A stretch of 32,376 nucleotides of DNA from a virus. Location: the IMG/VR virus record IMGVR_UViG_3300037153_000119, positions 1-32,376 of that record; one strand, written 5' to 3'. Within the stretch, counting starts at the first letter, position 1. The number at the start of each line of letters is the position of its first letter. Below the pieces are notes generated by a model. That model saw nothing but the letters and a program-made list of their open reading frames with translations, was not told the origin of the DNA and did no database searches. The position numbers were made by a program, and so were the translations under genes. Shown piece by piece: positions 610 through 28,322 of this stretch.

Positions 610-992
610 AGGCAGAGAACCACGTACCCAACACGACCCAGGTGGGCATCGCTCCGACGCGCCTACCGCCGACGATGCGCACGCGCCTCGCGGGATGGTG
701 CAAGATCGGGATCGATTTCTGTAACAAGGTCGGCGCTCCCCGCGTCGGTCAGCTGATCATGGCGCTCGAGCTCGCGCTACTCGATCTCGCTGCTTCCGAG
801 CTGCGGCTGCAGCAGCTCGAGCGGCGAGCGCGCAAGGCTGAGAGCGAACTCGCCGGCGCGCGCGCCGTGATCGAGCAGCTGCGGCAGGAAGCGGCGCGCG
901 TCGCCGCTGAGGAATTTGTCGCCGAGCCGACGCGCGTGCGGCCCGACGCTGATCCAGTCGTGGCCCGCTGCCGCACCGTTGAGGAATGCTGA
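606..992 (+). CDS. Coiled-coil hypothetical protein
   Basis: This 128-residue protein starts at an ATG 10 nt after a strong AGGAGG ribosome binding site and overlaps the previous stop. Residues about 50-100 form a heptad-like helix rich in Leu, Ala, Glu and Arg (L-E-L-A-L-L-D-L-A through the A-R-A-V-I-E-Q-L-R-Q-E region), a likely coiled coil. The N-terminal half is basic. It lies directly upstream of the SMC-like ATPase and could be its partner or a DNA-associated accessory protein, which is inferred only from position. No family is recognised. Confidence 0.6.
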   Translation: MKAENHVPNTTQVGIAPTRLPPTMRTRLAGWCKIGIDFCNKVGAPRVGQLIMALELALLDLAASELRLQQLERRARKAESELAGARAVIEQLRQEAARVAAEEFVAEPTRVRPDADPVVARCRTVEEC

Positions 993-2317
993 TGCTGATC
1001 ACGGCCCTCACGATCGACGACTACGAGGGTGTTCGACACGTCAGGATCACCCCGGCCGCCGACAGCTACCTGATCCTGATAGCCGGTCGAAACAAGCAAG
1101 GCAAGACATCGACGCTCAACGCGATCAGCGCCGCGCTCGGCGGTGCCAAGGCTGTCGCCGCCGATCCGGTACGGCACGGAGCCAAACTCGCCTCGATCAA
1201 GATCGAGCTCGACGGCGGGGCACTGATCGTCGAACGCACGATCGAGCCCGGCGGCCCGCCGCAGCTCGTCGTGCGTGATGCCGACGGCCCAGTCCGGCGC
1301 CCGCAACAACTGCTCGACCGGCTGCTCGGCGCGCGGTTCCTCGATCCGCTTGCGTTCCTGCGCTTGCCACAAGGCGACCAGCGCGCGGCGCTGATGCGCA
1401 TCATCCCGGGCGCGGCCGAGATCCAGCAGCTCGATGAGCGTCGCGAGCGCACGTTTAGGCTGCGCACCGAGACCGGGCGCAAACTGGCCATGGCGAGCGG
1501 CGAGATGCAGCGCCTGCCGCCGGCGGCCGAGCCGTTGACCCCGATCGACGTCGCCGCGCTGGTCGCCGAGAACGCCCGGTTCGCGCAGCAGCAGCGCGCC
1601 GGCGACGGGCTCGGCAACGTGGTCGCGCTCGCCGAGGCCAAGCTGCGAGCCGCTGAGGAACAGGCAACCAAGACCAGCGACCGGATCGCTGCGCTCGAGC
1701 GCGAGCTCGCCGAGACGCGCATCGCGCTCGGTGGGTGGGAGGGCGCGATCGCCGGGCACACCGAGCAGCTCGAGCACGCCCGGCAGCAGCTCGCCGCCGC
1801 CGCCAGCGCATGGGCATCGAGCGCGCCGCGGCGCGCCGACGTCGAGCAGCTGCTGGCCAACGCCGGCGAGCACAACCGGCGCGCGGTCGAGATCGCCGGA
1901 TCGAACGCGCGCCGCGACGAGACGCAGCGCGCGGTCGACAAGCTCGGCGCCGAGGTCGACAAGCTGACCGAGGCGATCGCCGGCATCGACAATCGCAAGG
2001 CGCAGATCCTCGCCGACGCGCAGCTGCCGGTAGACGGGCTCGAGCTCGCCGACGACGGGATCCTCGTCGCCGGCGTGCCGTTCGCGCAGGCGGCCGCGTC
2101 CGATCAGATCCGCGTGGCGCTCGCACTGGCCATCGCCGGCAGCGCTGGGCTGGACGACATCTGCGTGCGCGACGGCGCGCTGCTCGACGATGAGTCGCTC
2201 AAGCTGATCGCCGAGCACGCCGAGCGCGCTGGGAAACGCCTGTGGGTGGAGCGTGTCGGCACCGCGGATCCCGGTGCGATCGTGATCCAGGATGGCCAGA
2301 TCGCTGGTGCACCATGA
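992..2317 (+). CDS. SMC/RecF-like AAA ATPase of phage recombination operon
   Basis: This 441-residue protein is a P-loop ATPase of the SbcC/RecF/SMC type. The Walker A motif is G-R-N-K-Q-G-K-T-S at about residues 32-40, after a beta-strand start (I-T-A-L-T-I-D-D-Y) typical of RecF and SMC heads. The middle third is a long Ala/Glu/Arg-rich coiled coil. The C-terminal head holds D-Q-I-R-V-A-L-A-L-A-I-A-G, in the place of a signature-like helix, then D-D-I-C-V-R-D-G-A-L-L-D-D-E-S, a plausible Walker B/D-loop. Phages often place such proteins next to recombinases or nucleases, where they may act on DNA ends. An ATG at 986 is possible, but GAGG at 981-984 is correctly spaced only for 992. It is coupled to the neighbour on each side. 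Confidence 0.8.
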   Translation: MLITALTIDDYEGVRHVRITPAADSYLILIAGRNKQGKTSTLNAISAALGGAKAVAADPVRHGAKLASIKIELDGGALIVERTIEPGGPPQLVVRDADGPVRRPQQLLDRLLGARFLDPLAFLRLPQGDQRAALMRIIPGAAEIQQLDERRERTFRLRTETGRKLAMASGEMQRLPPAAEPLTPIDVAALVAENARFAQQQRAGDGLGNVVALAEAKLRAAEEQATKTSDRIAALERELAETRIALGGWEGAIAGHTEQLEHARQQLAAAASAWASSAPRRADVEQLLANAGEHNRRAVEIAGSNARRDETQRAVDKLGAEVDKLTEAIAGIDNRKAQILADAQLPVDGLELADDGILVAGVPFAQAAASDQIRVALALAIAGSAGLDDICVRDGALLDDESLKLIAEHAERAGKRLWVERVGTADPGAIVIQDGQIAGAP

Positions 2318-2493
2318 TGACGTTCGGCGATCTGCTGGTCGCGTTCGCTACAGCGCTGCTCGTGCGCGAGGCGTTCCGCGGCGTGCTGCCGCCCGACGTC
2401 CACATCGAGGCGGTGCGCGTGCTGCCGAGCCACGTGAGCGGCGTCAGGATCGCGCCCGGCTCGTACATCCTGATCGATTGGAGCCGGCTGTGA
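2314..2493 (+). CDS. Small hypothetical protein
   Basis: This 59-residue protein has an N-terminal hydrophobic helix (F-G-D-L-L-V-A-F-A-T-A-L-L-V) and a C-terminal half that looks beta-rich (G-V-R-I-A-P-G-S-Y-I-L-I-D-W). Its ATG overlaps the stop of the ATPase gene and its stop overlaps the GTG of the next gene, so it is an integral member of the operon. The helix is short for a membrane span and could be amphipathic. The family is unknown. Confidence 0.5.
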   Translation: MMTFGDLLVAFATALLVREAFRGVLPPDVHIEAVRVLPSHVSGVRIAPGSYILIDWSRL

Positions 2494-3134
2494 GACGCGA
2501 CCCGGCACCGCTGCAGTGGCCGCCGCGACTGCCGCGCACGAAGCCCGGCGGTCGCAAGCGCTCGAGCTTTGGGGGTCGCGGTGGCCGAGATGCGCTTTCG
2601 CCTTTCGCCACTGGCAAGGAGGTGTGCGCCGAGCTCGACCGGCTCGGCGCGTCGACGTGGGTGATCACGTCGAACCTGCCCTCGCGTGGTCCCGAGGGGA
2701 TACCGCTCGCCGACGCGCCGAGCGGCGAAGACCCGGGGATCGCGGTCTGGTTCCAGTACCGCCGCGTCGAGCGCGCGATCGCGTGCGACCGCTGGTATCG
2801 CCCGGAGGAAAACCTGCGCGCGATCGCGAAGTCGATCGAGGCGATGCGCGGGCTTGAGCGCTGGGGTGTCGCCGACGTGATGACGAACGTGTTCACCGGG
2901 TTCGCAGCCGCGTTGCCGCCCGGCGCCGACGAGCCGCGGCCGATCCTCTGGCGTGACGTGCTCGGCGGAAACTGGCCAGCAGGTATCGATGCGGTCGATG
3001 CGCTGGCGCTCGCCAAGGCGCGGCACCGTCGCCTCATGGAGAGCGAGCACCTCGACGCCGGCGGCAGCTCGGAGCGCATGCTCGAGCTCAACCTGGCGCT
3101 CGAGGCCGCGCGCTCGGAGCTCGGCGGCGCGTGA
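2490..3134 (+). CDS. Degenerate J-domain-like phage protein
   Basis: This 214-residue protein starts at a GTG that overlaps the previous stop (GTGA). The sequence matches my memory of proteins annotated as J domain-containing in phages and bacteria: an N-terminal P-L-Q-W-P-P-R-L-P-R-T, a core of I-A-V-W-F-Q-Y followed by A-C-D-R-W-Y-R-P-E-E-N-L-R-A-I, then an I-E-A-M-R-G-L-E-R-W-G helix, W-R-D-V-L-G, and a C-terminal helical pair (A-K-A-R-H-R-R-L to L-N-L-A-L-E-A-A). The C-terminal pair has J-domain spacing, but the canonical His-Pro-Asp is not present, so DnaK stimulation is doubtful. It is the last gene of the + operon; the next gene converges after 9 nt. Confidence 0.6.
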   Translation: MRRDPAPLQWPPRLPRTKPGGRKRSSFGGRGGRDALSPFATGKEVCAELDRLGASTWVITSNLPSRGPEGIPLADAPSGEDPGIAVWFQYRRVERAIACDRWYRPEENLRAIAKSIEAMRGLERWGVADVMTNVFTGFAAALPPGADEPRPILWRDVLGGNWPAGIDAVDALALAKARHRRLMESEHLDAGGSSERMLELNLALEAARSELGGA

Positions 3135-5612: not shown

Positions 5613-5861
5613 TCACTTGGATCCGCTGTCAATCCTGCTGTCAACCCCGGCGTCATCCGGCGGAACGACGGGCGGACTGCCGCGGCACGAGCCGAAGGCG
5701 CAGAACGCGCACCGCTGCAGCGGGTCGCCCTTGCACTCGATGTTCGAGTTGCACAGCCGGCCGCACGTAAGCACAGGCGGCGGTGTCTGCGGCTGGTCTC
5801 GGCAGTCGTTGCAGCTGCACGCGATGATCACGACGAGAGCGGCGGTCAGTACATGGCGCAT
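5613..5861 (-). CDS. Small cysteine-rich lipoprotein (possible o-spanin-like lysis protein)
   Basis: This 82-residue protein has a short signal peptide ending V-V-I-I-A-C, so Cys15 is the likely lipidated residue. Eight more cysteines follow in the next 45 residues or so (C-N-D-C, C-G-R-L-C, C-A-F-C and others). The end contains P-P-D-D-A-G-V-D-S, a linker style very common in myxobacterial lipoproteins. Small lipoproteins in lysis cassettes are often outer-membrane spanins (Rz1-like), and the gene overlaps the membrane protein upstream by 16 nt, as Rz/Rz1 pairs often do. The cysteine richness is atypical for Rz1, so a cargo lipoprotein is the alternative. Confidence 0.55.
   Translation of the reverse strand: MRHVLTAALVVIIACSCNDCRDQPQTPPPVLTCGRLCNSNIECKGDPLQRCAFCAFGSCRGSPPVVPPDDAGVDSRIDSGSK
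5620..5645 (-). promoter_or_regulatory. Late promoter motif 6, upstream of lysis-region membrane protein
   Basis: Read on the - strand it is GTTGACA, 15 nt, GATC, followed by 11 nt and ATG 5608. It lies inside the 3' end of the small lipoprotein gene. A second TTGACA occurs within the spacer. Confidence 0.5.
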
Positions 5862-6655: not shown

Positions 6656-7621
6656 ATGTCGAGATGTCTATGCGTACTGGCTGTGTTGATGGTGACGAGC
6701 TCGAGCTCGGGATGCACGGGCGATCTGAACACCGACGACCTGATCGTGTTCGCGGATGCCGCGGTCGACGAGACAATCGGCACGCGCAACGCGATCGCCA
6801 CGTCGATCGGCGTCGGGGGTAACACGGGCGACGTGTGGCCGGCCAGCGGGGTGCCGATGCCGGGCGCGTCGCGCACGGTCGACGGCGACGGGATCGTATC
6901 GATCGCAAACGGGTACTGGACGGTCGCCATCCCGGTCGACGCAGGATCAACGCTCGAGATCGCCGCCACTGTGCGCGACAACGGCACGGCGAATACGACC
7001 GCGCCGAACACGATCAGCATGTCCCTACTGAGCTACAGCGCGACCCAGGTAGTCACGCTGGGCACGGCGGTCTCCGACGCAAGCGGCAAGCCGCAGACGC
7101 TCACGATCTCGTCCGATCATGTCGTCGCGCCAGCCGAGATCATTTTCCTGCGATTCTCGCCGCTGGCGTCCACCACGCCGCCAACGTTCGCAATGACGTT
7201 CTCGCAGATCCGATCGATCACGGTGACGCGACGCCGCACACGCACGCTGGTCATTCCTGCAATCGCAGCATCGTCGCCCCAGTTTTCGGCATTCATCGGC
7301 GTGGGTGGATTCCTCTGGCGTTGCACATCTTCGGCGGATCACGTCGCCTTCCCCATCTCGCTTCCGTCCTCATCGAGGATCGTTTCTGTCACCACGTGGT
7401 TCAACGGCGCTGGCGCCCAGCAATCGGTGTCGCTGCGTAGAGGCCAGCTCGCGACCGGCCTGGTGTCAACGATTGGCTCGACGACGTCGTCGGCGACCGG
7501 CATATCGTCGATGACAATCTCGACGTCCTATATCGTTGGAGGCGACGAGCAGCTCATGGCTGATTTCGCATGCGGCGGTGCGGACACCGACGTTCGCGCG
7601 GTTGCAGTGAACTACCTCTAG
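6656..7621 (+). CDS. Cargo lipoprotein with tandem tail-fibre-like beta domains
   Basis: This 321-residue protein has a signal peptide and the lipobox S-S-S-G-C (Cys20), so it should be an exported lipoprotein. Two similar domains of about 100 residues follow (about 85-195 and 220-321). Each has a run of I-P/L-P, an R/E-I-x-x-V strand, a polar Gly/Asn turn, T-L-G or T-I-G-S, and a closing strand. The C-terminus of the neighbouring fibre-like protein (7618-8463) has the same layout. The strand is opposite to all late genes, which marks it as a moron. GGAGG lies about 7 nt before the ATG. The TAG shares CTAG with the stop of the convergent gene. A role in surface masking or superinfection interference is speculation. 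Confidence 0.65.
   Translation: MSRCLCVLAVLMVTSSSSGCTGDLNTDDLIVFADAAVDETIGTRNAIATSIGVGGNTGDVWPASGVPMPGASRTVDGDGIVSIANGYWTVAIPVDAGSTLEIAATVRDNGTANTTAPNTISMSLLSYSATQVVTLGTAVSDASGKPQTLTISSDHVVAPAEIIFLRFSPLASTTPPTFAMTFSQIRSITVTRRRTRTLVIPAIAASSPQFSAFIGVGGFLWRCTSSADHVAFPISLPSSSRIVSVTTWFNGAGAQQSVSLRRGQLATGLVSTIGSTTSSATGISSMTISTSYIVGGDEQLMADFACGGADTDVRAVAVNYL
7618..7621. other. CTAG shared by two convergent stop codons (copy 1)
   Basis: The palindrome CTAG provides the TAG of the + strand lipoprotein and the TAG of the - strand fibre-like gene. The same arrangement occurs at 11589-11592 and 28739-28742. Confidence 0.9.
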
Positions 7622-8474: not shown

Positions 8475-8954
8475 CTACAGGTTGTCCCATACGTGCGCGA
8501 AGCGGAACGAGACCGCCTTGCGCCCGTGGCGATGGATGGTGCCGCCGATGAATAGCCGGCCGTTCGTGCTCGTGTCGATCTCAAGGTCGACCTTCGACGC
8601 CACGTTGTCGTCGGTGAACCAGGCCAGGGCCTCGCGCGAGTACTCCTCGGCGAGCGGCCCGATGTCGCGCGTGAACGCGGCGCGATCGAGAAGCCACAGC
8701 CGCGATCCGATGAGGTCGCCTTCATTATCGGCGAACTCGTCAGCCCACCACCCGCGGCGATCGTCTGGCTCACCGCTCGGTGGCACGTCGTCGTCGAACG
8801 CGCGGCGATCGAGGAACAGCGACAGCAGCGCCGCGGTGATCATCGTTGTGTCGGAGGCGAGGTCGCCGTCGATGATCGACAGGTCCGCGAACCCCAGCAC
8901 CTCATCCCAGAGCAACGCCAGGTCGGCGAGCTGCAGCGCGCTCGACGTCGCCAC
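8475..8954 (-). CDS. Baseplate protein, Mu gp46 family
   Basis: This 159-residue protein matches the gp46 (P2 W/gp25-like) baseplate family: an early D-L-S-I-I-D-G-D-L, then R-R-G-W-W-A-D-E, G-S-R-L-W-L-L, A-E-E-Y-S-R-E-A-L-A-W-F and a C-terminal strand. The protein helps build the baseplate wedge around the spike. It starts at a GTG that overlaps the gp48 stop. In Mu and its relatives gp46 lies between gp45 and gp47. Here it comes after the gp48 equivalent, an altered order. Confidence 0.85.
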   Translation of the reverse strand: MATSSALQLADLALLWDEVLGFADLSIIDGDLASDTTMITAALLSLFLDRRAFDDDVPPSGEPDDRRGWWADEFADNEGDLIGSRLWLLDRAAFTRDIGPLAEEYSREALAWFTDDNVASKVDLEIDTSTNGRLFIGGTIHRHGRKAVSFRFAHVWDNL

Positions 8955-10267
8955 TACAGCCCCGCTCCGATCAGATCGCGGTCCGTAAGCGAGAACTGGT
9001 CGTCGAACAGCATCGCCGTCGTCTCAATCACGTATCCGGCGGTGTGCGACGGCTTCACGCGATCGAGCTCGGCTTGCGCGGCCGCCAGGAAGTACGCTGG
9101 GGACACGGGCGGCGCGGCCGGATCGCGAAGCACAAAGAATTCGAAGATCGCGCGCTGGTCGCCGACGCCGGCGACGTACGAGAGATCGCGTTCGATGATC
9201 ACGACGTCCTCGGGATCCTGCAAGAGCAGCGGCGCGAGAGCGACTTGGATGTCGACCGGGCGGAACCGCTGGCGGTCGACCTTCCGCGAGACGATGCGCG
9301 CCTGCCGCTCGGCGACGGTCACGGCCGGCGTGATCTCGAGATCCGCCTCGTACTCGGGCAGCAGCTCGACGGCGGTAGTCGGGTCCGCTTCGTTGAGCAT
9401 GTCGGCGACGCGGTCGTGCACGCGCACGAGCTCGTCGGCGCATCCGAGCATGAACTGGTAGAGCTTCGTGCTGACCGCGCGCCAGAGCTTGCCCGGCGGC
9501 AGCAGCGCGAACAGCATCCGCGCGTAGTCGCGCGCAGTGGGTTCCTCGCTGATCGTCTCGGCGAACCGCGTGAGCGCGGTCGACAGCCCCGCAGACAGCC
9601 CAGTCGCCACACTGGCTCCCTTGCCGATGTAGAGTGCGGCGAGTCGGAAGTGATCGTTGCAGTCTGCCCAGTCGGTTCTACCGACGTAGAAGTTGGCCGC
9701 AACGGCGTACGAGAAGCTTCCGACCGTGGCCTCACTGCTGACCGCAGAGACGCCCCCCAGCGACCGAGTGCCGATCCGTGCCTTGCCCGTGCTGCGGTCG
9801 ATCACAGCGATGCCTACGTGCCATGTCCCGACGTGGTACGCACTTGTCCCGTCGATCGACGTTCCCAGCGAGCCCAGTAGCAGCCTGGTTCCGTCGGTGC
9901 CGCTCACGTACCAGCCATTGCCGCCCGAGGTGGCCTTGCCGAACATGCCTCCGAACGCGCTCGGTAGCTCAGTCCACAGCCCGACCCACGCGACCACGAG
10001 GTCATCGGTTCCGCCAACGTCGAAGTTGGCGCCGCCGTCGAACCGCCCGAGCTCGGCTTGCGTGGTGAATTCGATGCACCGATCGGCGCCGCCGCGTGGC
10101 CCGGCCTGGCCGTACAGGATGCCGCCCGACGCGGTGAGCGTGAGCGCGCCGAACGCTGGCACCATGTTGCCGCTCTCGTCATTGCACAGCCAACCGTTCG
10201 AGAACGTCGCGCCCGGGATCGCGGCCGCCGCGGCCGCCGCGGTGGTCGGGTATGCGCGCGCGGTCAT
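8954..10267 (-). CDS. Fusion of LamG-like lectin domain to Mu gp48 (DUF2313) baseplate protein
   Basis: This 437-residue protein has two parts. Residues about 15-215 look like a concanavalin/LamG jelly roll (C-I-E-F-T-T-Q-A-E-L, L-V-V-A-W-V-G-L-W, G-W-Y-V-S-G, Y-H-V-G-T-W-H-V-G-I-A, F-Y-V-G-R). Residues about 235-437 match gp48/DUF2313: Y-A-R-M-L-F-A-L-L-P-P-G-K-L-W, V-H-D-R-V-A-D-M-L-N-E-A-D-P, T-A-V-E-L-L-P-E-Y-E, V-A-E-R-Q-A-R-I. The gp48 part would sit at the baseplate edge and connect fibres; the lectin part may bind host glycans. Start ATG 10267 overlaps the gp47 stop (ATGA), so 10267 is preferred to 10273. Confidence 0.8.
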   Translation of the reverse strand: MTARAYPTTAAAAAAAIPGATFSNGWLCNDESGNMVPAFGALTLTASGGILYGQAGPRGGADRCIEFTTQAELGRFDGGANFDVGGTDDLVVAWVGLWTELPSAFGGMFGKATSGGNGWYVSGTDGTRLLLGSLGTSIDGTSAYHVGTWHVGIAVIDRSTGKARIGTRSLGGVSAVSSEATVGSFSYAVAANFYVGRTDWADCNDHFRLAALYIGKGASVATGLSAGLSTALTRFAETISEEPTARDYARMLFALLPPGKLWRAVSTKLYQFMLGCADELVRVHDRVADMLNEADPTTAVELLPEYEADLEITPAVTVAERQARIVSRKVDRQRFRPVDIQVALAPLLLQDPEDVVIIERDLSYVAGVGDQRAIFEFFVLRDPAAPPVSPAYFLAAAQAELDRVKPSHTAGYVIETTAMLFDDQFSLTDRDLIGAGL

Positions 10268-11334
10268 GCCCATGTGATGGTTCCTACCGTCGGCAGTTGA
10301 CCGACGCCCGGCACCACGTTGGCCGATGGCACCGTGAGCGTGTAGTCGGTGACGCCGGCGGCGACTCCAATCGCCGTAGTGATCTCCGACAGCTTGATCG
10401 TGCCGCTGCCGGCGAGGTCGCCCGGCAGGGCCTTGCGGACGAACAGGTCGGCGAGCTCGGCCTGCACCGCAAGCCGGGTGTCAGTCGTGTCTGGCACGAT
10501 GTGGATGGTGAACGCGACAGGGCTCAACGTCGGGGTGGCCGCGGTGACGATCGCGGTGATCGGCCGCTCGCTGTTGAGCTTTGTCTGCGCGGCCGCTATC
10601 AGTCCGGCGTCGGCGGTGATCGGGTTCGCGTTGTCGTTGACGATGCGGACCACGACGGTTCCGAGCCCGTTCTCGAGCGGCGAGACGAACGCGCGCGTGA
10701 CGCCGGCGACCGCCTCGGCCCAGCCCTCGTAGTCGGCTTCGCGGCCGCCAGCCGGGGGCTCGCGCAGCCTCAGCAAAAAGCGCGCGCGGAACTCCTCGGT
10801 CGATTCCTCGTCGAACCCGTTCGTTATGTCGGCGGCGATGGTCGCCGTCCCGTTGAGCCCCGCGAACGGTGACTCGAGTTGGAGCGTCGTGCCCGCGGGA
10901 AGGTTCGCGCTCGATCCGGCGATGTCAGCCGTGATGCCGAGCGTCGCGGTGCCGCCGCTGATCGTCGCGCCGGCGGTCACGTGGAACGTGGTCACCGCGT
11001 CGAGCCGGTACGTGATCGTCGGGCTCGTCGTGATCACCGTGCCGTTGGTTCCGGTCACGGTGATAGTGCCGGTCGCGAACGTCGCCGGCGTCGGTGACAT
11101 CCCGTACGGCTTCGCCATGCGGAGGAGCTGATCGCGCTCGGCGGTCAGGGCGAACAGCTGGCGCGCAAGCCAATCGAGATATCCGTACAGCCCATGAACG
11201 GCGCCACCCCACACGGCGCCGACGACGTCGACCATCGCGCGGCGCAGCAACGGACCGGCGACCGACAGCCGGCCGCGTAGGTCGCCGCGGATTCGGGTGA
11301 TCAGGTCGCCGAGGGTTGGCCGGATGAACGGCAT
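10264..11334 (-). CDS. Baseplate J-like protein (Mu gp47)
   Basis: This 356-residue protein is a baseplate J/gp47 family member. It begins F-I-R-P-T-L-G-D-L-I-T-R-I and continues with R-A-M-V-D-V-V-G-A-V, L-D-W-L-A-R-Q-L and R-M-A-K-P-Y-G. The central beta-rich part has repeated Gly/Thr strands and an acidic F-D-E-E-S-T-E-E-F-R-A-R-F-L-L-R segment that is highly typical of the family. This protein forms the baseplate wedge ring that contacts the sheath. It starts a transcription unit: promoter motif 3 places GATC 13 nt before the ATG, and there is no convincing Shine-Dalgarno sequence. Confidence 0.9.
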   Translation of the reverse strand: MPFIRPTLGDLITRIRGDLRGRLSVAGPLLRRAMVDVVGAVWGGAVHGLYGYLDWLARQLFALTAERDQLLRMAKPYGMSPTPATFATGTITVTGTNGTVITTSPTITYRLDAVTTFHVTAGATISGGTATLGITADIAGSSANLPAGTTLQLESPFAGLNGTATIAADITNGFDEESTEEFRARFLLRLREPPAGGREADYEGWAEAVAGVTRAFVSPLENGLGTVVVRIVNDNANPITADAGLIAAAQTKLNSERPITAIVTAATPTLSPVAFTIHIVPDTTDTRLAVQAELADLFVRKALPGDLAGSGTIKLSEITTAIGVAAGVTDYTLTVPSANVVPGVGQLPTVGTITWA

Positions 11335-11347
11335 GGCCCACTGCGGT

Positions 11348-11373
11348 GATCATGGGCGACCGCGCGTGTCAAC
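11348..11373 (-). promoter_or_regulatory. Late promoter motif 3, upstream of gp47
   Basis: Read on the - strand it is GTTGACA, 15 nt, GATC, followed by 13 nt and the gp47 ATG (11334). It also lies between the divergent gp47 and lanthipeptide-like genes. Confidence 0.6.
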
Positions 11374-11403
11374 CCCACTGCTGTTGTGAGACAGTCGCTC
11401 GAT

Positions 11404-11592
11404 ATGAAGCACAAGAAACTGCAGCTAACCAAAACCACGATTCGACATCTCACCGCGCTGCATCAGGTCCGCGGAGGAGGATGGCCGAACACCAACGAGC
11501 GAACGGTGTGCATGGAGTGCTTTCCCTCGGACGGGACTCAATCGCACTGCTGCCCTGACACAACGATCACGGCAATCTGCACCACGTTCTAG
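11404..11592 (+). CDS. Lanthipeptide-like RiPP precursor peptide inserted in tail operon
   Basis: This 62-residue peptide is on the strand opposite to the tail genes. Residues 5-16 (K-L-Q-L-T-K-T-T-I-R-H-L) fit the leader pattern K-L-x-L-x-K-x-T-(I/L)-R-x-L known from class I lanthipeptide precursors of Bacteroidota and some other phyla. L-T-A-L-H-Q-V-R-G-G (residues 16-25) fits the L-T-x-x-x-L-x-x-V-x-G-G end. The putative core 27-62 has five Cys (36, 39, 49, 50, 59) and ten Ser/Thr, ending T-T-I-T-A-I-C-T-T-F. Such cores are dehydrated and cyclised by LanB/LanC, which are not in this window. GTG 11386 is an alternative start. No strong Shine-Dalgarno is seen. A small Cys-rich non-RiPP protein is the alternative. 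Confidence 0.55.
   Translation: MKHKKLQLTKTTIRHLTALHQVRGGGWPNTNERTVCMECFPSDGTQSHCCPDTTITAICTTF
11589..11592. other. CTAG shared by two convergent stop codons (copy 2)
   Basis: CTAG gives the TAG of the + strand lanthipeptide-like gene and the TAG of the - strand spike gene. Confidence 0.9.
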
Positions 11593-12218
11593 ACGTCGAT
11601 CTTGATCTTCGACGAGATCGCCGCTGTGATCGCCGACTTGAACGCGGTGATGGCGGTCTGGAACGTCGCGGAGGGCGAGGACATGCCGGGTAGCGCGGCG
11701 ACGGCGCCGACGAACGTGTTCAACGCGGTGAGGAACGTCTGCTCCGCGGTGTCGCGGGTGTCGCCCTTGATCACGCCGTGCGTCGCGCCGGCGCCGCCGA
11801 GCTCGACCACGCCGCTCGTCGACATCTGGATCTTGTGCGACCGCGCGAGCCGGATCTCGTCGCCCTCGTCGGTTCGCAGCCCCACCTCGCCCGGCTGGCC
11901 GTTCCTGGGGCGGTGTCGGGGATCCGCGATCGATATCGTGATCGGGTGACTGCGGTCGCCGCCCGGGAAGATGATCACCGCGTGCGCCCCGGGCAGCGGC
12001 ACCGAAAAGAACCCGTAGGGCAGCGGCCGCTCGGTGTGCTCGGAGCCGGAGCTCTGCGGTAGCTCGCCGAGGTTGCACTCTACCTGCACCCGCTGCGTGC
12101 GTCCGCTGTCGTCGACTAGCGTCACCACGCCGCGCGAGATCACGTTCTGGATCGGCCGGAGGCGCGGCTCGATCATCTTCCACACCTGGCGCGCCAGGTC
12201 GCGCGGGATGCCCTGCAT
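11589..12218 (-). CDS. Baseplate assembly / spike protein, Mu gp45 (gpV-like)
   Basis: This 209-residue protein matches Mu gp45, the trimeric membrane-piercing spike at the tail tip. Landmarks are R-G-V-V-T-L-V-D-D-S-G-R-T-Q-R-V-Q-V near the N-terminus, L-P-Y-G-F-F-S-V-P-L-P-G-A-H-A-V-I-I-F-P-G-G-D-R-S-H in the OB-fold region, and then R-L-A-R-S-H-K-I-Q-M-S. The C-terminal tail is Ala/Thr/Phe-rich and helical. Its ATG overlaps the stop of the hub gene by one base. It is the last gene of the tail unit. Confidence 0.9.
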   Translation of the reverse strand: MQGIPRDLARQVWKMIEPRLRPIQNVISRGVVTLVDDSGRTQRVQVECNLGELPQSSGSEHTERPLPYGFFSVPLPGAHAVIIFPGGDRSHPITISIADPRHRPRNGQPGEVGLRTDEGDEIRLARSHKIQMSTSGVVELGGAGATHGVIKGDTRDTAEQTFLTALNTFVGAVAALPGMSSPSATFQTAITAFKSAITAAISSKIKIDV

Positions 12219-19450: not shown

Positions 19451-19476
19451 GATCACGCCGCCGTGGCGCTGTCAAC
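19451..19476 (-). promoter_or_regulatory. Late promoter motif 2, upstream of tail unit
   Basis: Read on the - strand it is GTTGACA, 15 nt ending CGT, GATC, followed by 11 nt and the GTG at 19439. There is no room for a normal ribosome binding site leader, which suggests a leaderless or nearly leaderless transcript. Confidence 0.6.
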
Positions 19477-19843: not shown

Positions 19844-22303
19844 TTACCCCAGCAGCTCGATGATGTCGGTATCCATGGTCGCGACGAGAGCCGCGAATCC
19901 GGTCAGCTCGATCCCCGTCGCGTAGAACGCGACAGCGACGCTGGTGCCGGCCGCGACCGCTGTCGCGTCCCAGATCGATCGCCCCACGGCCGCAGCCGCC
20001 GCGGTCCCGGTGGAGGTTCCGGCAGCAGACGCCGCCGCCGCGGTGGCCGCAGCGACCGCGATGCCGGATGCGATGCCCGTGGTAGCCGCCAACGACATGC
20101 CGACCGCGGCAGCAGTGGAGGCGCCTGCGGTCGTTCCGGTGCCTGACCCCGCGGATGGCCCGGCCCCGACCGCCGTCGCATCCGCCAGCCCCGCAGCCAC
20201 ACCGACGCAGCTGCTCTGTGCGGCACCGACAGCTTGCGCCGCGCCGGTCCCCGAGCTCGCCGCAGCACACGAGGCCAGCGAGCTTCCGACCGCGGTCGCC
20301 GTCGACGTTCCAGACGTGACCCCTCGAAACGCTGGCACAGCAGCGGCCGTGCCAACACCCGCCGATGCGCCAGCACCCGAGCCCAGCGGATTCGCCACAG
20401 CGGCGGCAGTCGATGCGCCCGAGCTCGAGGCAGTAGCGGTGAGCACCGTCGTCGAGTTGCCGCTGGCAGTGCTGGCGCCGGTTGCGGAGCCGACAGCGGC
20501 GATCATCGCGGCGCCCACGGCCGATGCACCGCTCGTTGCCGTCGCTACGCCAGCGGACGCTGCGATTGATGCGCCCACACCGAGCACCGTTGCGCTGGCC
20601 GACGACGCGCCCGACACAGTCTCGAGTAGAAGCACCCAATCAGCGTCTCCAGCGCTGTTCGCGCCCGGCGTTGAGAATGCGTGCGTCCCGGAATTCGCGA
20701 ACGCTCCTGCGTTCGTGAACGTGGCGTTGGCCGGATCGAACCAACGCGCCTGTGCCGTCGCTGACAACTTCGTCATGTCGACGGTGATCGAGCCTGTGTG
20801 ATCCGGCGGCACGTATGCGACCAGCAGATCACCCTCGGGTGTCGCCGCTGCAGCGACGTATGTCGTCGACTGCGGACTCGCGGTGCCTCCACCTGCGGTG
20901 ATCAATGCCCCCATGCCACCAAGCCCCGACGGTTTCAGGCGATGCCAGGGCCTCGACTTCAGGAACGCGAACTGCCGGCTCGCGTCGAGCGTGCCCTGTG
21001 TCGCGAGGATCGTCGTGTAGTCGGTGCCAGGTGTTCCGTCGTCGAATCGCCAGGCCTGCTCATGGCCAAAGAACCCACCCGAGATCCCGGCCAGGAACCC
21101 CCACCAGAGATATTTGCGCCAGGGCGCCGAACCACCGAACAGCCCTTGCTCGTAGTTGTACTCCCCCAGCAGCGACGGGATCGCCGGCGTGACTGCATAT
21201 CCGCGGCGACACAGCTCGGCTGTCGAGTCGTCGCTGTAGCAAAAATTCATGTCCCACGAGCCAGCCGTGAGGTTGGTGTCGGTCGCGAGGCAAGGCCGAT
21301 CCCAGTGAGCGGTCCAGAGTAGAGACTGCTGGCCCGCCACCGACTTCATCCCGGCCATCACGCTCGTCACTGCAGCGCGCTCCGCTGTGCTGAGCGTCTG
21401 CGTGTTCGCTCCGTAGTCGCCACCCATGACCCAGATGATGTTCGGCCGGTTCTTCCATCGATTCGCGAGCCACGCTCCGTAATTCCAGAGTTTGGATTTC
21501 GTCGGATTCGCGAACGACTGGCCGACGAAGCCGCCTGCGCCGATGATCCCGTCGAGCACAACCATCTCCTGCATCCACCCCTCTTGCCCCGCGTGGAACC
21601 CTATATACGCGGGCCACGTGAACACCGCGACGCTGTGTTGCTCGCACGCATCGAGCACGCTTTCGATCACCTGCCAGTAGCTGTTGTTGATGAACGTCCA
21701 GTCGGCCGCCTGCGTATTGATATTCGAGTAGTTGTCGGCGGCGAACTGGCCTTGCGTGCCGTTCGCTCCGGTCGTCCCATTCGGCGATCCGGTGAACGCG
21801 GATCCGTCGAGCCTCTGCGTGAAGGGCAGCAGGCCTCCTCGCTCCTTGGGTGGCTTGACGAGGGTGAAGCAATGCGCAATAGCCTCCATCAGAACGCAAT
21901 TGAATCCTTGCGACGTGATCGTATTGAGGTACGAATTGAGACCGGCGATCGGAATGTTGACCCCGATCTCCCATGCGCTCGTGCCGCAGATGAGGAACGG
22001 AGTGCCGTTCGCCTGCTTGAGGTATCGCCCGTCCGACGAGACAGTCAACGGGAACACGCCAGCGCCGGCGGCGACCGCGCTGGCAGAACCAACACCAGCT
22101 GCGGACGCCACACCGCTCGCCAGTGGCAGAGCGACAGCAGTAGCCGTGCACGTCCCGGTCGCGGCGCACACGCCGAGCGGCACGCTGGTGGCCGTGGCGG
22201 TCGACGTCCCGTCAGATGACCCGACGCTGCCGGCGAGAGCTATGCTTCGTGGCGGCGCCGGTCGCCGCTGCGGCAGCGGCGATATACGCGCGAACAGGGG
22301 CAC
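19844..22303 (-). CDS. Glycoside hydrolase (DUF4038 / GH140-like) flanked by Ala/Ser/Gly/Thr repeats, virion module
   Basis: This 819-residue protein starts at a GTG after GAGGAGGGG. Residues about 20-82 and 578-795 are low-complexity repeats of roughly 20-22 residues built on A-V-G, G-T-S-T-A and similar units. Residues about 84-455 match the DUF4038 (apiosidase-like, GH140) TIM barrel: F-P-L-T-V-S-S-D-G-R-Y-L, G-T-S-A-W, N-I-I-W-V-M-G-G-D-Y-G and L-L-G-E-Y-N-Y-E, the last two likely holding the acid pair. A beta domain (about 480-575, L-L-V-A-Y-V-P-P) resembles the C-terminal domain usually attached to this barrel. There is no signal peptide, and the gene lies among head genes. It is probably a virion-borne glycan hydrolase acting on host capsule or slime; the substrate is unknown. 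Confidence 0.78.
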   Translation of the reverse strand: MPLFARISPLPQRRPAPPRSIALAGSVGSSDGTSTATATSVPLGVCAATGTCTATAVALPLASGVASAAGVGSASAVAAGAGVFPLTVSSDGRYLKQANGTPFLICGTSAWEIGVNIPIAGLNSYLNTITSQGFNCVLMEAIAHCFTLVKPPKERGGLLPFTQRLDGSAFTGSPNGTTGANGTQGQFAADNYSNINTQAADWTFINNSYWQVIESVLDACEQHSVAVFTWPAYIGFHAGQEGWMQEMVVLDGIIGAGGFVGQSFANPTKSKLWNYGAWLANRWKNRPNIIWVMGGDYGANTQTLSTAERAAVTSVMAGMKSVAGQQSLLWTAHWDRPCLATDTNLTAGSWDMNFCYSDDSTAELCRRGYAVTPAIPSLLGEYNYEQGLFGGSAPWRKYLWWGFLAGISGGFFGHEQAWRFDDGTPGTDYTTILATQGTLDASRQFAFLKSRPWHRLKPSGLGGMGALITAGGGTASPQSTTYVAAAATPEGDLLVAYVPPDHTGSITVDMTKLSATAQARWFDPANATFTNAGAFANSGTHAFSTPGANSAGDADWVLLLETVSGASSASATVLGVGASIAASAGVATATSGASAVGAAMIAAVGSATGASTASGNSTTVLTATASSSGASTAAAVANPLGSGAGASAGVGTAAAVPAFRGVTSGTSTATAVGSSLASCAAASSGTGAAQAVGAAQSSCVGVAAGLADATAVGAGPSAGSGTGTTAGASTAAAVGMSLAATTGIASGIAVAAATAAAASAAGTSTGTAAAAAVGRSIWDATAVAAGTSVAVAFYATGIELTGFAALVATMDTDIIELLG

Positions 22304-26457: not shown

Positions 26458-26483
26458 GATCACGCCGGTTAAGCCGAGTCAAG
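26458..26483 (-). promoter_or_regulatory. Late promoter motif 4, upstream of capsid gene
   Basis: Read on the - strand it is CTTGACT, 15 nt ending CGT, GATC, followed by 13 nt and the capsid ATG. It lies in the 43-nt gap after the portal stop. A separate promoter would allow high capsid expression. Confidence 0.55.
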
Positions 26484-28295: not shown

Positions 28296-28322
28296 GATCA
28301 CGCAAGGTGCTGCACTGTCAAC
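28296..28322 (-). promoter_or_regulatory. Late promoter motif 1, upstream of gpW-portal
   Basis: Read on the - strand it is GTTGACA, 16 nt ending GCGT, GATC, followed by 12 nt and the gpW ATG. The spacer is one longer than in the other copies. It lies in the divergent gap before the + strand cargo gene. Confidence 0.6.

Follow-up and report, generated by a model that had tools for sequence, protein, structure and literature searches.

Why would a contractile-tail phage carry, in the middle of its baseplate operon and on the opposite strand, a short reading frame whose product resembles the precursor of a modified bacterial peptide of the lanthipeptide type? The ORF lies at 11404-11592 (plus strand) in the 32,376-nt viral sequence analyzed here, which we refer to as the window (IMG/VR record IMGVR_UViG_3300037153_000119). 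It spans 62 codons, with the translation MKHKKLQLTKTTIRHLTALHQVRGGGWPNTNERTVCMECFPSDGTQSHCCPDTTITAICTTF* (62 aa), and an in-frame GTG at 11386 provides an alternative start that would yield a peptide of 68 aa. The original prediction, made from the DNA sequence, described a leader with the pattern K-L-x-L-x-K-x-T-I-R-x-L, a Gly-Gly at residues 24-25, and a core with five Cys and ten Ser/Thr residues. The leader pattern is indeed present, as K5-L6-x-L8-x-K10-x-T12-I13-R14-x-L16, and the core composition agrees with our count for residues 27-62 (11482-11589, plus strand), in which the cysteines occupy positions 36, 39, 49, 50, and 59. The glycines are also found where they were described, but the pair is actually a triple, G24-G26. 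The putative leader, taken to end at these glycines, comprises residues 1-26 (11404-11481, plus strand).

To place the leader among characterized families, we turned to NF038153 (lant_leader_L1a), the sole NCBIfam family that matches the 62-aa peptide. The whole profile (model positions 1-32) aligns with residues 1-25, although the score of 16.7 bits (E 0.0059) falls below the curated cut-off of 22 bits. In a six-frame profile search of the window, the ORF was the only NF038153 match (E 6.3e-4). Further, a group of class I LanA precursors carries the leader motif LxLxKx5L together with GG (PMC7268733), which appears in the peptide as L6-L8-K10-x5-L16, followed by G24-G26. A strict form of this motif, in which LxLxKx5L-x(3-14)-GG has a Met close by, has one occurrence in the window and none in 2.81 Mb and 0.99 Mb (3.8 Mb in total) of other loci; in 10 Mb of Markov sequence, it arose once, and never with at least four Cys in the core. 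Matches to the profile are similarly scarce: 50 other Mu-type phage records yielded none at a threshold of E<=1, 27 clade-level records none at E<=10, and 297 genomes from the phylum of a Desulfobulbaceae (Desulfobacterota) member none at E<=0.01. The best score in 13 genomes with related prophages was 13.6 bits, and 399 Pseudomonadota genomes contained two matches at E<=0.05 (17.0 and 16.0 bits), both of them partial and located inside frames of 240-414 residues. These searches correspond to a chance rate of ∼1e-4 leader matches per 32-kb record, a figure that is good to an order of magnitude only, with thresholds that vary with genome size, and that applies to an ORF picked for looking like a lanthipeptide precursor. 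Because both the profile matches and the strict motif are so rare elsewhere, the leader resemblance probably reflects real homology rather than chance. At best, as judged from the sequence, the ORF would work like a lanthipeptide precursor; membership in the lanthipeptide family is not established, since the score lies under the cut-off and the maturation enzymes are absent from the record.

The similarity to NF038153 is confined to the leader, and the core has no family match. This restriction is consistent with a Gly-Gly-leader RiPP of another class (e.g., a radical-SAM, C39-exported peptide), or with an unmodified Gly-Gly-leader bacteriocin, either of which would borrow a protease-transporter, and perhaps another enzyme, from the host. 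Double-Gly leaders are frequent in other RiPP classes (PMC7268733), which makes a lanthipeptide the most likely but not the sole class, and the CxxC and CC spacing in the core is not diagnostic for lanthionine rings. However, the only family reached is a class I lanthipeptide leader model, and the ten Ser/Thr and five Cys residues fit thioether rings, for which the presence of both residue types is necessary though insufficient. On balance, we consider assignment to another class unlikely. The CxxC and HCC clusters, along with a low-confidence hairpin modeled at about residues 37-49, could also point to a small phage protein rich in Cys that perhaps binds zinc and has no relation to RiPPs, its basic N terminus being leader-like. 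Against this, the single-sequence structure prediction is uninformative (pLDDT 49), its confidence being too low to give the hairpin meaning; the peptide matches no Pfam or PHROG family and has no relative among solved structures (best E 0.38); and its N terminus aligns end to end with the leader model. We therefore regard an unrelated Cys-rich protein as improbable.

As had been predicted, the ORF is located between, and on the opposite strand to, a gp45-like baseplate spike gene (11589-12218, minus strand; PF06890, E 1e-20) and a gp47-like baseplate gene (10264-11334, minus strand; phrog_6, E 8e-61). Upstream in the surrounding Mu-type baseplate operon are gp44, gp43, and the tape measure, tube, and sheath genes; on the downstream side, the operon continues with gp48, gp46, and a fibre-like gene. 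The gap between gp47 and gp45 is 254 bp long (11335-11588), and the stop codon of the ORF (11590-11592) overlaps that of the spike gene within a CTAG palindrome. Most of ∼115 Mu-type loci have 369-490 bp between gp45 and gp47, which fits the presence of gp46 there, and four Mu-type loci show gp46 directly between the two genes. In the clade of the window (gp47 49-64% identical), gp46 is displaced downstream of gp48 (8475-8954, minus strand, in the window; PF07409) and the gp45-gp47 junction is free, an arrangement seen with loci L005, L177, and L186-L210. The junction is empty, at 41-96 bp, in 11 relatives (L186, L187, L188, L192, L195, L197, L198, L201, L202, L205, and L210), whereas ten clade loci, or about half of the members, carry unrelated cargo there. 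Besides the window, these are L005 (262 bp), L190 (255 bp), L177 (559 bp, including a 72-aa ORF), L191 (1503 bp, with a beta-helix ORF), L193/L194 (497 bp, with a 154-aa ORF), L199 (388 bp), L200 (482 bp), and L206 and L207 (2-4 kb).

Compared with the empty junctions of its relatives, the window appears to have gained a segment of ∼210 bp (putative boundaries, 11378-11588), nearly all of which is the 62-aa ORF, and the G+C content of the gap is 58% vs 67% for the window. The ORF is an extra gene where relatives have an empty site, which is one mark of a moron. Because of these empty sites, the agreement between insert and ORF size, and the lower G+C content, the ORF looks like a phage moron (cargo gene) at a gp45-gp47 hotspot. 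Our preferred explanation, to which we assign a probability of roughly one-half, is that this cargo gene is an orphan GG-leader RiPP precursor, most likely of the class I lanthipeptide type, which the phage would have taken from a bacterial host, with the variable gp45-gp47 junction as its point of entry.

Frames in other parts of the window were noted as well. Between the head and tail genes, an 818-aa frame (19844-22300, minus strand) combines an apiosidase-like glycoside hydrolase domain (PF13204, E 7e-35) with a domain that resembles collagen-binding ones (PF12904), and is likely a polysaccharide-degrading accessory protein. A 321-aa frame with high GC3 (6656-7618, plus strand) lies between minus-strand genes and matches no entry of Pfam, PHROGs, or NCBIfam. 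The gene pair at 986-3131 (plus strand) encodes an ATPase-like DNA-repair protein (phrog_1499), with its closest relatives in Arthrobacter phages (∼33%), and a phrog_9210 protein of unknown function. Searches of the window for tRNAs and Rfam families found none.

Homologue searches bear on a less favorable explanation, namely, that the ORF is non-functional and lies in an inserted fragment of host or phage DNA, its leader likeness being either accidental or a decaying remnant. With the 62-aa peptide as the query, tblastn returned nothing in phages and only noise in plasmids (best E 0.04), and a query that combined a consensus leader with part of the ORF core gave no convincing match. No precursor with the same core was found in phages, plasmids, or IMG/VR, which was the scope of the search (Bacteroidota and Myxococcota genomes lay outside it). 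Two IMG/VR loci considered as relatives of the peptide, L003 and L004, proved to be chance matches without a precursor-like ORF, and two degenerate leader patterns run over IMG/VR gave 9 and 4 matches, all spurious, with no precursor among them. A gp47 scan of genome contigs identified mainly Proteobacteria, at <=47% identity. None of the related phages carries the ORF. While the original prediction had listed such an absence as grounds for refutation, it does not refute the precursor reading, because it is expected at a cargo site. That absence also leaves the ORF represented by a single sequence. The class I lanthipeptide assignment made at the outset is partly supported: it is favored by the leader motif, the GG, and the match statistics, and is weakened by the sub-cut-off score, the occurrence of GG in other classes, the lack of a known LanB/LanC supply, and the lack of a homologue in related phages.

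Expression signals were examined for the ORF and its neighbors. Neither a Shine-Dalgarno sequence before the ATG of the ORF nor a sigma-70-like promoter upstream of it was seen. The clade does contain a promoter-like element, TTGACa-N15/16-cRTGATCc, located 10-14 nt ahead of start codons, and this element precedes gp47 in the clade loci with a displaced gp46. In the window, the pattern has five matches vs 0.26 expected, four of which are well formed and on the minus strand: one just upstream of gp47 that is conserved in the clade (TTGACA-N15-TGATC, 11348-11372), and three others at 19451-19475, 26458-26482, and 28296-28321. Despite lying behind the element, gp47 likewise has no Shine-Dalgarno sequence, and no ribosome site is present between the element and the starts. 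Since genes behind the element, such as gp47, have no ribosome site, late transcripts behind it may be nearly leaderless. The idea that this element drives the ORF is not supported, as no copy is present upstream on the plus strand. A separate opposite-strand cargo ORF at the same junction in L005 (5400-5661; MHERTAITTTRIVDGW...), which has no Pfam or PHROG match, possesses its own well-formed copy of the element at 5615 (minus strand).

Because the ORF has no Shine-Dalgarno sequence, sigma-70-like site, or plus-strand promoter element, its putative expression is unproven and constitutes the weakest point of the precursor reading. The missing promoter and ribosome site, the missing homologues, and the leader score below the cut-off are all compatible with a non-functional ORF, as is the fact that a frame of ∼60 codons is nothing unusual for 250 bp. 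However, missing signals are weak evidence in a clade where gp47 also lacks a Shine-Dalgarno sequence and promoters sit so near to the starts. Moreover, chance would very rarely combine the leader motif with GG and a tail rich in Cys, and the insert is filled by an ORF that ends at its neighbor's stop. Hence, we view a functionless insert as doubtful, and return to the orphan precursor as the preferred reading.

If the ORF does encode such a precursor, its maturation would depend on enzymes supplied from elsewhere. In line with the original prediction, which noted the absence of LanB, LanC, and protease genes from the window, profiles for the LanC cyclase (PF05147), Lant_dehydr_N (PF04738, LanB dehydratase), and Peptidase_C39 matched neither the window nor any of ten related records. 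We propose that (i) the leader would be recognized in trans by a host dehydratase and cyclase, (ii) the core would then be dehydrated and cyclized, (iii) a host C39 transporter-protease would cut behind the Gly-Gly, and (iv) the thioether-bridged product would help the infected or lysogenized cell against its rivals. The full scenario, in which the cargo of a contractile-tail phage at its baseplate-operon hotspot is an orphan class I lanthipeptide precursor, and host LanB/LanC plus a C39 exporter, acting in trans, give the infected or lysogenized cell a new peptide, is put forward tentatively. The window yielded no integrase; a temperate lifestyle is possible, because the relative L202 encodes a tyrosine integrase. 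A leader carried without enzymes might also serve as a decoy that binds the host RiPP enzymes or C39 transporter, and so blocks a host peptide, be it anti-phage or competing. Such a counter-measure is conceivable, given that an anti-phage lanthipeptide of Streptomyces has been reported in a review (PMC12360287). Nevertheless, a decoy would have no need of a Cys- and Thr-rich core, and no host system is known, which renders this the least probable of the explanations considered.

Should the orphan precursor be made and modified as proposed, a phage would need to deliver just a 190-bp precursor gene to redirect a RiPP pathway already resident in the cell. This would help to explain how new cores spread with the enzymes staying put, and would provide a compact system in which to test modification in trans. 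The gp45-gp47 cargo site is a place to seek more such genes.

Leaders of the LxLxKx5L type that end in Gly-Gly, as in the class I lanthipeptide precursors of NF038153, have been described in Bacteroidetes (PMC7268733). The ORF shares with these precursors the leader motif, the GG, a short Cys- and Ser/Thr-rich core, and the overall length, but it differs in its score (16.7 vs the cut-off of 22), in a leader ∼7 residues shorter than the model, in having no LanB, LanC, or C39 gene nearby, and in its location in a phage baseplate operon. Prochlorosin precursors (class II) are encoded far from their one promiscuous enzyme, ProcM (PMC7268733, PMC10783134). Like the ORF, they are precursors without an adjoining enzyme and presumed to be modified in trans, whereas their Nif11 leader family and class II enzyme set them apart. 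To our knowledge, prochlorosins are not phage-borne. Sublancin 168 of the prophage SP-beta is a phage-carried antimicrobial peptide gene that has been read as benefiting both lysogen and phage (PMC6391423). The resemblance lies in the carriage by a phage of an antimicrobial, or here a candidate, peptide gene. Sublancin 168 is a glycocin rather than a lanthipeptide, its immunity gene, sunI, is also present on the prophage, and it is located outside the tail operon. Prochlorosins and sublancin are precedents for the logic, not for this gene, and we know of no example of an orphan RiPP precursor as moron cargo. The site itself resembles those of phage morons, in that unrelated small genes, often of different G+C content, occupy one fixed position between conserved structural genes; in this clade, that position is the one between gp45 and gp47 that was vacated by gp46.
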